Positions 57,735 through 63,793 of a DNA stretch of 64,000 nucleotides are shown here, in pieces (within the stretch, counting starts at the first letter, position 1; each line of letters begins with the position of its first letter). The stretch is from the NCBI GenBank assembly GCA_015058655.1, contig SVBX01000004.1, positions 62,001 to 126,000 of the forward strand, in the 5' to 3' direction. The translations under genes and the position numbers were made by a program. The DNA is from Pseudoselenomonas ruminantium (GTDB lineage: Bacteria > Bacillota > Negativicutes > Selenomonadales > Selenomonadaceae). The notes beneath the pieces were generated by a model that was not told the DNA's origin, did not search any database, and was given only the letters and a program-made list of their open reading frames with translations.

Positions 57735-57836
57735 GTATCAGCTGTGTGACTGACGGTAGGGGAATACCCCAGGGGAGCACAGCAGCGAGAAGCCGACCGT
57801 CTGGGCAATTGCCTGGATCAGTGTCGGTTTTTTTAT
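57735..57836 (+). promoter_or_regulatory. ZTP (pfl) riboswitch with terminator
   Basis: TATCAGCTGTGTGACTGACG at the 5' side and GCCGACCGTCTGGGCA at the 3' side match the conserved halves of the pfl/ZTP aptamer. The last part can instead form CCGAC...GTCGG followed by seven T, so ZTP/ZMP binding would prevent termination. The gene downstream consumes ZMP (AICAR). Confidence 0.85.
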
Positions 57837-61096: not shown

Positions 61097-61100
61097 TAAA

Positions 61101-61135
61101 GGCGTGCTACCCGAAGATGGGCGGCACGCCTTTTT
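61101..61135 (+). terminator. terminator of the Ppx/GppA gene; left edge of cassette copy 1
   Basis: GGCGTGC/GCACGCC with loop CCGAAGATGG then TTTTT. A diverged copy of this hairpin is also present at 63411-63445, so it belongs to the duplicated cassette. Confidence 0.85.
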
Positions 61136-61138
61136 GAT

Positions 61139-61167
61139 TTGACGAAAGCAATTTGAATCTGTATACT
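61139..61167 (+). promoter_or_regulatory. sense promoter, peptide cassette copy 1
   Basis: TTGACG, 17 bp, TATACT. Identical boxes and spacing in copy 2. Confidence 0.85.
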
Positions 61168-61258
61168 ATCCGTAAGCTACAAAACGGTAGGTGGTTAGCC
61201 CTCTCATCAAAGCTGGCGTTAGAAGCGCGTGGTCGATCGGCAGATGGGAGGTGATGGT

Positions 61259-61327
61259 ATGGACAATTTGACGCTTCAGTTATTGCTGATTCTGCTTATT
61301 ATTCTTGCCGTCAATAAAAAGAAATAA
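61259..61327 (+). CDS. 22-residue hydrophobic peptide (putative type I toxin), copy 1
   Basis: ATG 61259 is 6 bp behind GGGAGGTG. The peptide, MDNLTLQLLLILLIILAV followed by NKKK, is a single membrane segment with a basic end, like holin-like and TxpA-type toxins. It differs from copy 2 at four aligned positions, and copy 2 is one residue longer. The mRNA (about 61174-61438) has an 85-nt leader and is opposed by an antisense promoter at 61448-61476. Toxicity is inference from architecture. Confidence 0.75.
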   Translation: MDNLTLQLLLILLIILAVNKKK

Positions 61328-61441
61328 CCGCCCCTAGCCTCACAAGCAGAGCGGTTTATTTCTATATGAATTTAACCAATCAGCAGAGGGCTAACCGTTT
61401 ACCAGTAGCCCGCCTCCTGTTAGCCGCAGGAGGCTTTTCTT
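61315..61441 (-). ncRNA. predicted antisense RNA, copy 1 (type I antitoxin)
   Basis: Begins just after the promoter at 61448-61476, runs antisense to the 3' UTR and the last codons of the peptide gene, and ends at an AACCGC/GCGGTT hairpin followed by T-rich sequence at about 61315-61330. About 125 nt. Confidence 0.65.
61411..61440 (+). terminator. terminator of peptide mRNA, copy 1
   Basis: GCCTCCTG/CAGGAGGC stem, loop TTAGCCG-like, then TTTTCTT. The left arm is complementary to the ribosome site of the peptide. Confidence 0.85.
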
Positions 61442-61447
61442 GTGCCA

Positions 61448-61476
61448 ATTATACCATGAAATCCCTCTGATTTCAA
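61448..61476 (-). promoter_or_regulatory. antisense promoter, copy 1
   Basis: TTGAAA, 17 bp, TATAAT on the minus strand: near-consensus. Same boxes and spacing as copy 2. Confidence 0.85.
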
Positions 61477-61481
61477 TGGTT

Positions 61482-63158
61482 TCATTGCAGCAGCCCCAGT
61501 ACGCTGCTGCTTTCGCTGTTGGCTTGGGCCAGCATGGATTGGGAGGCTTGGAGCAGGAGGTTGTCCCGGGCGAAGTTTACCATTTCCTTGGCCATGTCCG
61601 CGTCGGAAATGGTGCTTTCTGAGGCCAGGACGTTTTCCTGACTTGTAGTGATGTTGGCGGCGCAGATTTCCATGCGCATCATCTGCGAGCCAAAATCCGT
61701 CTGGACGTGGAGGATGTATTTGATGGCCTGGTCAAGGTCTTTCAGGAAGCCTTCCGCACCCTCACGGGTACGCAGGACTTCGCCCTTGCTTTGTGCACCT
61801 TTCTTGGTAAGGTGCCAGGCATTGTCACGCCAGAGCTGTTGCTTTTTTTGCAAGTCCGTGCCTTGGTAATCCTCATAACGTTCCGGGTAAGCGTCCGAGT
61901 CCGGGAAGTCGCCCCCGTCAAAATCCGTGGGCAGTTTTTCCGGCTCCAGCAGGAATTCGCTGTCAGAAGGAGGGAAAAGAGCCTCAAGAGAAGTGTTCCA
62001 GAGGCGTATCATGGTTTTCTCGCTGGCCTTGGTGCCGGATTGGATGTAATGGTCCTCCCAGGGGTGGTAGCCGGAGGCCACGGTGGTGGTGGTAGTAACC
62101 TCCACACTGGTAGTCACGCCCTTGATGCCGTTGTAGAAAACAGGGGTTGCATTATCTCTGGCGGTGGTGAAATAAACCGTGTTTCCGTTACTATGAACCA
62201 TGAGGGTATGTACCCCAATCTGATTGTTTGGGGCGTTGCTGACACCAGCACCGGTGAAGTTGTTGCTTCCCTTGGCCTGGTTGGCGGCAAGAATGCCATC
62301 ATAGACGGCATTGGCAATATCATCAGCGTTCTGCGCACCCTTGAGGCCGATGATGAACTGGCGGGCATCGGGATAGGTGTCGTTGATGGAATCCTGTCGT
62401 TGCCCCGAGCCAAGGTCTCTGGAGGTGTCAAAGACAATGGTGGCAAACTGCTTGCAACGGTCGCACATTATGGACAATCCTTGCAGGTTGAAATCTTCGA
62501 TGGTGTGTCCTGACAGCGCAGTGGTGAAGTCTAGAATCATGCCGTTGGTGTTGGGCTCGGGACTGGATGTGGAATAGACCCCCATGATACCCCAGGTCGA
62601 CATTATTCCTCTATTGGTGCCGCCCACAACGAAAATATCTCCAATGGTGGTATTGTCTATTTCCGTTATGCCTGGGTCGAAGGGGGCAAACTGGGTGCTT
62701 TCACTGATTTGGGTGACATTCTGTACCGCTTCCGTCCTGTGGTTTAACAACGTCATGCCATTGTAGGTGGTTTCCTCCGCAATCAAATCAAGCTGATTGA
62801 AAAGCTCGTCCGCCTCGATGGCCAGCACATCCCTGTCCTTTTGGGAGTAAGTATCGTCCGAGGCTTTCAGGGTGATTTCCCGCATCTTCTTCAAAATGTC
62901 CAACTGGCACTGCACCGACTCGGAGGCGGTCTTGAGCATATTATAGCCGGTATTCACGTTGGCGGCGCAGGCATCCAGTCCCCGTATCTGTGCCCGCATA
63001 CGCTTGGCAATGCTGTAGCCGGAGGCATCGTCCCCGGCGCCCGTGATTTTCAGCCCGGAGGAAAGCCGCGCCATGTCCTTGGCCAGGCGGCTGTTGTTGG
63101 TGCCAAGGATATTGATGGAGTTCACGGCGGACATATTGTTGACGATTTTCATTGCCAT
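61482..63158 (-). CDS. hag: flagellin
   Basis: 558 residues from ATG 63158 (AGGAAGGGGG before it; a second ATG two codons on is possible). Filament subunit, exported by the flagellar type III system. D0/D1 N-terminus KIVNNMSAVNSINILGTNNS and MARLSSGLKITGAGDDASGY; C-terminus AKEMVNFARDNLLLQASQSM ending SSSVLGLLQ. The central surface region (about 170-440) is unrelated to the common D2/D3 patterns and holds a CDRCKQ pair, unusual since flagellins rarely carry Cys. Expressed from a sigma-28-type promoter; flanked on both sides by the peptide cassettes. Confidence 0.95.
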   Translation of the reverse strand: MAMKIVNNMSAVNSINILGTNNSRLAKDMARLSSGLKITGAGDDASGYSIAKRMRAQIRGLDACAANVNTGYNMLKTASESVQCQLDILKKMREITLKASDDTYSQKDRDVLAIEADELFNQLDLIAEETTYNGMTLLNHRTEAVQNVTQISESTQFAPFDPGITEIDNTTIGDIFVVGGTNRGIMSTWGIMGVYSTSSPEPNTNGMILDFTTALSGHTIEDFNLQGLSIMCDRCKQFATIVFDTSRDLGSGQRQDSINDTYPDARQFIIGLKGAQNADDIANAVYDGILAANQAKGSNNFTGAGVSNAPNNQIGVHTLMVHSNGNTVYFTTARDNATPVFYNGIKGVTTSVEVTTTTTVASGYHPWEDHYIQSGTKASEKTMIRLWNTSLEALFPPSDSEFLLEPEKLPTDFDGGDFPDSDAYPERYEDYQGTDLQKKQQLWRDNAWHLTKKGAQSKGEVLRTREGAEGFLKDLDQAIKYILHVQTDFGSQMMRMEICAANITTSQENVLASESTISDADMAKEMVNFARDNLLLQASQSMLAQANSESSSVLGLLQ

Positions 63159-63392: not shown

Positions 63393-63410
63393 AGGAAATT
63401 TTGCAAAAAA

Positions 63411-63445
63411 AGCCTGCCACCCGAAGATGAGGCGGCAGGCCTTTG
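63411..63445. terminator. hairpin at left edge of cassette copy 2
   Basis: GCCTGCC/GGCAGGC around CCGAAGATGA; corresponds to 61101-61135. No plus-strand gene precedes it here, so it came with the duplication and may insulate the cassette from the divergent flagellin promoter. Confidence 0.75.
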
Positions 63446-63449
63446 TGAT

Positions 63450-63478
63450 TTGACGGAAGCAATTTCCATCTGTATACT
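63450..63478 (+). promoter_or_regulatory. sense promoter, peptide cassette copy 2
   Basis: TTGACG, 17 bp, TATACT. Confidence 0.85.
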
Positions 63479-63569
63479 ATTCTTAAGCTACAAAACGGTA
63501 GGCGGTTAGTCCTCTCATCAAAGCTGGCGTTAAAAGCGCGTGGTCGATCGGCAGATGGGAGGTGGTGGT

Positions 63570-63641
63570 ATGGACAATATGACGCTTCAGCTGTTGCTGA
63601 TCCTTCTGATTATCTTTGCCGTCAATAACAGAAAGAAATAA
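63570..63641 (+). CDS. 23-residue hydrophobic peptide (putative type I toxin), copy 2
   Basis: ATG 63570 behind GGGAGGTG. MDNMTLQLLLILLIIFAV followed by NNRKK; the changes from copy 1 keep the membrane segment and the basic tail, which indicates selection for the peptide. Leader, promoter, ribosome site and terminator all match copy 1. Confidence 0.75.
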   Translation: MDNMTLQLLLILLIIFAVNNRKK

Positions 63642-63750
63642 CCGCCCCAGTTCCCCAACTTTGGCGGTTATTCTATGCAATAACTTAAAACCTTGAGGAC
63701 TAACCGTTTACCAGTAGCCCGCCTCCTGTTACAGCAGGAGGCTTTTTCTA
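63625..63750 (-). ncRNA. predicted antisense RNA, copy 2
   Basis: From the promoter at 63757-63785 to a hairpin AATAACCGCC/GGCGGTTATT (10 bp) followed by TCTTTCT, which overlaps the peptide stop codon. Complementary to the mRNA 3' UTR. Confidence 0.65.
63721..63749 (+). terminator. terminator of peptide mRNA, copy 2
   Basis: GCCTCCTG-TTA-CAGCAGGAGGC then TTTTTCT. Confidence 0.85.
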
Positions 63751-63756
63751 ATGCAG

Positions 63757-63785
63757 ATTATACCATGATTTTCATTTGATTTCAA
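63757..63785 (-). promoter_or_regulatory. antisense promoter, copy 2
   Basis: TTGAAA, 17 bp, TATAAT on the minus strand. Confidence 0.85.
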
Positions 63786-63793
63786 CGGGTTCC

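Follow-up and report, generated by a model that had tools for sequence, protein, structure and literature searches.

Putative type I toxin–antitoxin cassettes on both sides of a flagellin gene and at other chromosomal sites in Selenomonas

In the window (i.e., the whole 64,000-nt stretch of DNA analysed here), a flagellin gene lies between two copies of a short cassette, each with an open reading frame (ORF) for a small hydrophobic peptide, which raises the question of what the cassette is and whether its position around this gene has any significance. An earlier note on this DNA had read the cassette as duplicated and toxin–antitoxin-like, and the promoters, terminators and ORF recognised by sequence in both copies support that reading. 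We consider it likely, on modelled RNA architecture, that each copy is a chromosomal type I toxin–antitoxin locus working in the manner of bsrG/SR4, that the cassette has spread, and that the flagellin gene is a bystander.

Two direct copies and their parts

The copies (copy 1 at approximately 61098-61480, copy 2 at approximately 63410-63790) are direct repeats in the same orientation, about 2310 nt apart start-to-start, and they enclose the flagellin gene (PF00669/PF00700) alone, just as had been described. Copy 2 is indeed a diverged, collinear version of copy 1: whole-cassette identity is 83% (400 nt), with 90% identity across 198 nt and three more collinear blocks, and the longest exact runs common to both are 32 and 31 nt. 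All the elements named earlier occur in both copies (Table 1), namely an upstream hairpin, a plus-strand promoter (TTGACG-17-TATACT), a Shine-Dalgarno (SD) segment, a start codon, an ORF of 22 or 23 codons, a central hairpin, a right-hand hairpin with a T-run and a minus-strand promoter (TTGAAA-17-TATAAT). A 3-kb region contained six promoter-like sites against a chance expectation of 2.7, and four of the six are the two cassette promoter pairs. While the leading hairpin is present in both window copies, it does not hold up as a general part of the cassette: when the left flanks of ten full copies were compared, it was found in only three (the two window copies and one in the sister genome G005), and in copy 1 it occupies the position of the ppx terminator in relatives. 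Outside the cassettes, a gene that, judged by appearance, seems purine-related is preceded by a ZMP/ZTP riboswitch (RF01750) at window positions 57736-57813.

Table 1. Features of the two cassette copies and the enclosed gene (window coordinates)
Feature	Position	Strand	Remark
Copy 1 leading hairpin, probably ppx terminator	61098..61131	+	Similar hairpin behind ppx in cassette-free relatives
Copy 1 toxin promoter TTGACG-17-TATACT	61139..61167	+	Promoter scan
Copy 1 closing helix, 5' arm GGTAGGTGGTTAGCCCTC	61186..61203	+	Its CCTC also starts the anti-SD
Copy 1 peptide MDNLTLQLLLILLIILAVNKKK and stop	61259..61327	+	
Copy 1 central hairpin, read as antitoxin terminator	61323..61360	-	Overlaps toxin stop codon; U-tract is complement of toxin Lys codons
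Copy 1 closing helix, 3' arm	61386..61403	+	
Copy 1 toxin mRNA terminator hairpin	61412..61434	+	Also the antitoxin RNA 5' hairpin
Copy 1 antitoxin promoter TTGAAA-17-TATAAT	61448..61476	-	
Flagellin gene	61482..63158	-	Probable bystander outside the system
Copy 2 leading hairpin	63410..63443	+	
Copy 2 toxin promoter TTGACG-17-TATACT	63450..63478	+	
Copy 2 predicted toxin mRNA	63485..63747	+	Closed by 5'/3' end pairing
Copy 2 closing helix, 5' arm GGTAGGCGGTTAGTCCTC	63497..63514	+	
Copy 2 anti-SD CCTCTCATC	63511..63519	+	Partner 63554-63562; overlaps 5' arm
Copy 2 SD segment GATGGGAGG	63554..63562	+	
Copy 2 peptide MDNMTLQLLLILLIIFAVNNRKK and stop	63570..63641	+	
Copy 2 central hairpin (putative antitoxin terminator)	63637..63672	-	Overlaps toxin stop codon
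Copy 2 predicted antitoxin RNA	63630..63750	-	About 115-120 nt
Copy 2 closing helix, 3' arm GAGGACTAACCGTTTACC	63695..63712	+	
Copy 2 toxin mRNA terminator hairpin	63721..63742	+	Also the antitoxin 5' hairpin
Copy 2 antitoxin promoter TTGAAA-17-TATAAT	63757..63785	-	Right border of copy 2

A predicted RNA switch around a conserved peptide

Folding predictions paired the first 30 nt of the RNA with the 3' part of the full-length transcript in all ten genus copies, giving a closing helix of 18+5 bp whose inner end shares the motif CCUC with the anti-SD (target GAUGGGAGG). By sequence, a minus-strand promoter and a region complementary to the 3' part of the mRNA are present, and the antitoxin RNA predicted from that strand opens with the toxin terminator hairpin followed by a near-copy of the toxin mRNA 5' end. 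The predicted accessibility of the SD depended on the 3' arm: with this arm absent or blocked, the mean probability of the SD being unpaired was 0.03-0.21 and its opening cost 7.4-14.0 kcal/mol, compared with 0.09-0.54 and 4.2-7.8 kcal/mol in the full-length RNA. The shift ran this way in all ten genus copies, being marginal in the one on contig C46 (7.0 vs 7.5 kcal/mol), and in copy 2 the SD was mostly paired even in the full-length RNA (probability unpaired 0.18).

These parts can be assembled into the following model. Transcription from the plus-strand sigma-70 promoter would yield an mRNA for a membrane peptide of 22-23 amino acids, presumably toxic, whose 5' end and 3' part would form the closing helix in competition with an anti-SD hairpin; with CCUC taken up by the closing helix, the SD of the closed, full-length mRNA would be partly open. 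The convergent minus-strand promoter would produce an antitoxin RNA complementary to the 3' part of the mRNA and, since it carries a copy of the mRNA 5' sequence, this RNA would compete with the mRNA 5' arm for the 3' arm and displace it. The freed 5' arm would then allow the anti-SD to close on the SD, switching translation off, and the mRNA:antitoxin duplex, by analogy with bsrG/SR4, may be a substrate of RNase III. The antitoxin would end at the central hairpin, with a U-tract that is the complement of the toxin Lys codons and stop.

Comparison with more distant cassettes gave a similar but less uniform picture. For 20 cassettes from other genera and families, the mean SD opening cost was 10.5 in the short RNA, 8.5 in the long RNA and 10.5 in the long RNA with a shuffled tail (Wilcoxon p = 2.6e-4 for the difference in opening cost), with the effect missing, reversed or no larger than 1 kcal/mol in seven of the 20. 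Within the genus, covariation was weak because the stems are almost invariant, and z-scores of the duplex between whole leader and tail against shuffles were uninformative for these copies, so that cognate and non-cognate arms were compared instead. In 23 cassettes with divergent arms, cognate pairs had a dG of -36 to -55, as opposed to non-cognate medians of -22 to -34, and the arms of 25 Hol_Tox loci (see below) likewise paired with their cognates. As comparative evidence, we give this cognate pairing of divergent arms more weight than the few compensatory changes seen within the genus. Rfam covariance models, run at gathering and relaxed thresholds, gave no credible match to the cassette; matches to RNAI, SurA and other Rfam families were at chance level, far under the cut-offs.

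The peptides themselves (MDNLTLQLLLILLIILAVNKKK in copy 1 and MDNMTLQLLLILLIIFAVNNRKK in copy 2; 22-23 aa) are hydrophobic with a Lys/Arg tail. Across ten copies, pN/pS was 0.20 and JC dN/dS about 0.12, indicating purifying selection and bearing out the earlier description of the peptide as conserved in its hydrophobic, basic-tailed character; a short peptide of this type under selection is as would be expected of a type I toxin. The basic tail and stop codon may be so fixed because the antitoxin U-tract (UUAUUUCUUU) on the complementary strand is their complement. Pfam and NCBIfam profiles gave no credible family match to the window peptides, DIM (E 0.13) and TatA (E 0.04-0.15) being rejected as far under the cut-off.

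A different reading would make the cassette a structured regulatory RNA or a mobile repeat with an incidental small ORF. Although the RNA stems are its most conserved part, and although copies are dispersed and form tandem arrays in relatives, this is improbable in our assessment: apart from the low dN/dS, the ORF varies in length by whole codons and has a strong SD, other genera place different peptides of the same hydrophobic, basic-tailed plan in the same cassette position, and the two halves of the cassette are lost asymmetrically (see next section).

Dispersal, loss of halves and the flagellin gene

The genome containing the window (G000) has further full copies on contigs C9 (beside hydF/hydG) and C46 (an unrelated locus), and eight more cassette sites were found in three sister Selenomonas genomes (G001, G004 and G005), while G002 has a right half only and G003 no cassette. 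On C9, the copies lie on either side of hydF and a gene with radical-SAM and BATS domains that we read as hydG; the C46 copy and one on contig C8 of G001 occupy a common locus in the two species. A census of the six genus genomes counted 15 antitoxin elements and 12 toxin leaders, i.e., 12 copies with both halves (one G004 pairing being inferred, since the contigs break at an inserted element that separates the two halves), three antitoxin-only copies and no toxin-only copy. The leader pattern was matched by 11 of the 12, the twelfth (in G001) having a 1-nt insertion. At both G000 sites with a solo antitoxin half, relatives have full cassettes, toxin half included, and such one-way loss of the toxin half is as a harmful toxin predicts, short of proof.

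The solo halves in G000 are at C9:80812 and C9:84110 (L007 6813-6975 and 10111-10250) and that in G002 at L035 2985-3091; their promoter and 5' hairpin are intact and a terminator is present, G002 having lost the central hairpin and having another terminator in its place. They could be selected immunity genes, i.e., trans-acting RNA antitoxins that shield against paralogous cassettes via the near-invariant 3' arm, and hence make up a type I RNA anti-addiction network moving among ordinary Selenomonas chromosomal genes, a tentative idea to which we give rather little credence. The cassette DNA matched nothing in the plasmid and phage collections searched, and an exact scan of genome and viral contigs for the antitoxin element matched only Selenomonas contigs, apart from coding-sequence coincidences in L092 and L095.

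Several insertions and arrangements were also observed. Both cassettes of G004 have a short repeat inserted in the toxin leader after GGTTAG (L033 1-140; L034 1-140 and 3168-3246; L036 140-345); it has inverted ends, GGGCGTGTTGATTAA, and is possibly a MITE with the target duplication TAG. A cassette of another peptide type in G005 (C8, L031 2900-3250) has an ORF apparently interrupted near the basic tail by a repeat-like insert. Elsewhere in the Selenomonadaceae, related small-peptide cassettes form close tandems with a spacing of about 290-350 nt (G023:C1:224369-228151, G077:C11:249-567 (L103) and G202:C43:9030-9405).

The earlier note had tied the cassette to the flagellin gene, suggesting that recombination between the copies could delete or amplify the gene, with the cassette punishing its loss. 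An addiction or recombination device of this kind, protecting or amplifying the gene, would suit two same-orientation copies with exact runs of 31-32 nt around a single gene, and hydF and hydG are also flanked by cassette copies, their order differing in G002. Most cassette copies, however, lie away from flagellin: occurrence at unrelated places, named in advance as evidence against the link, was looked for and found beside hydF/hydG on C9, at C46 and at other unrelated sites in G001, G004 and G005. Moreover, none of the four readable sister ppx-gyrA spacers (G001, G002, G003 and G004; only about 150 nt in G001 and G004) has either flagellin or cassette and, because both are absent there, the flagellin–cassette block is, judging by these spacers, an insertion specific to G000 among the genomes compared. 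The supposed punishment also fails, since the product of a crossover between the direct copies is a single complete hybrid cassette with mRNA and antisense RNA still cognate, and flagellin loss would therefore not unleash the toxin. The G000 genome has many other flagellin genes. We regard such a device as very improbable and the association of the cassettes with flagellin as probably accidental.

Recombination between the copies is a separate matter: it is possible, given the 31-32 nt exact runs and the hydF/hydG order, whereas neither deletion nor amplification was seen among genomes that number one per species. In G002 the hydF-hydG order is reversed and a cassette remnant separates the two genes (L007, L029, L034 and L035 compared), an arrangement that may reflect recombination between flanking cassettes. 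In a tree of cassette cores, copy 1 and copy 2 were not mutual nearest relatives; a clade of the two, as a tandem duplication would give, was not favoured (p-AU 0.054), other clades being weakly supported. Common flanks combined with cores that are not nearest kin suggest exchange or gene conversion between copies, as far as such weak trees can indicate.

Relation to known systems and meaning

The closest likeness is to bsrG/SR4 of the Bacillus subtilis prophage SPbeta, in the TxpA/BsrG group, where SR4 binds the 3' end of bsrG mRNA and lengthens the SD helix from 4 to 8 bp (PMC7430163). The SPbeta (SPBc2) bsrG locus, used as a control, has its parts in the same order, and its SD helix likewise became longer when the 3' arm was blocked in silico. 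As read from the DNA, both systems have mRNA 5'-3' end pairing with an SD hairpin, a terminator hairpin behind the 3' arm, an antisense RNA that opens with this hairpin and continues with a copy of the mRNA 5' end, and an antitoxin terminator with a U-tract complementary to the Lys codons and stop. The features of TxpA/BsrG-type architecture (closing helix, SD hairpin and antitoxin complementarity to the 3' end) were thus found by prediction, and it is on predicted architecture that the likeness rests: the window peptide has 22-23 aa compared with 38 in BsrG, with no recognised sequence similarity, and the Selenomonas cassette is multi-copy and located between ordinary chromosomal genes.

Hol_Tox (PF16935) cassettes of other Negativicutes also combine a short hydrophobic peptide with a cognate 5'-3' closing helix, and in some of them the stop codon is overlapped by the same AATAACCGCC central hairpin; the window peptide, by contrast, does not match the Pfam Hol_Tox profile, which found no match in the G000 genome either. 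In Hol_Tox loci from across Negativicutes (L126-L155), the toxin gene is enclosed by a cognate 5'-3' inverted repeat, and a T-run often comes after it. Type I systems of Clostridioides difficile (CD2517.1-RCd8 and others), as described in the sections of the source consulted (PMC6563280), resemble the cassette in their convergent overlapping RNAs, Lys-rich tail and several copies per genome, but their toxins have 34-59 aa and several lie in prophages; those sections make no mention of antitoxin-only loci. That the cassette is instead an Fst/par-type type I module, with convergent RNAs sharing a bidirectional terminator and 5' ends complementary via direct repeats, is most improbable: the convergent promoters, central terminator-like hairpin and small hydrophobic peptide do recall the Fst architecture (PMC7472228) and Fst/Ldr or par of pAD1, but the cassette end repeats are inverted where those of par are direct, identity between the sense leader and the 5' part of the antisense RNA reaches 12 nt but complementarity does not exceed 7 nt, leader:antisense duplex energies are close to those of shuffles, and the peptide has a different motif, matching no Fst or Ldr profile and lacking PXXXG.

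In the open-access literature searched, we found no type I toxin–antitoxin system described in Selenomonas or other Negativicutes. If the bsrG/SR4-like reading is correct, the cassettes carry a putative family of very small toxins missed by the profile libraries tested. Their common RNA plan (closing helix, antitoxin copying the mRNA 5' end, U-tract over Lys codons) may allow such loci to be found independently of peptide sequence; taken by itself, the central-hairpin pattern was present in 55 of 189 Selenomonadaceae genomes, an upper bound that includes some ordinary terminators. Finally, the antitoxin-only copies would offer a natural test of whether an RNA antitoxin protects in trans.
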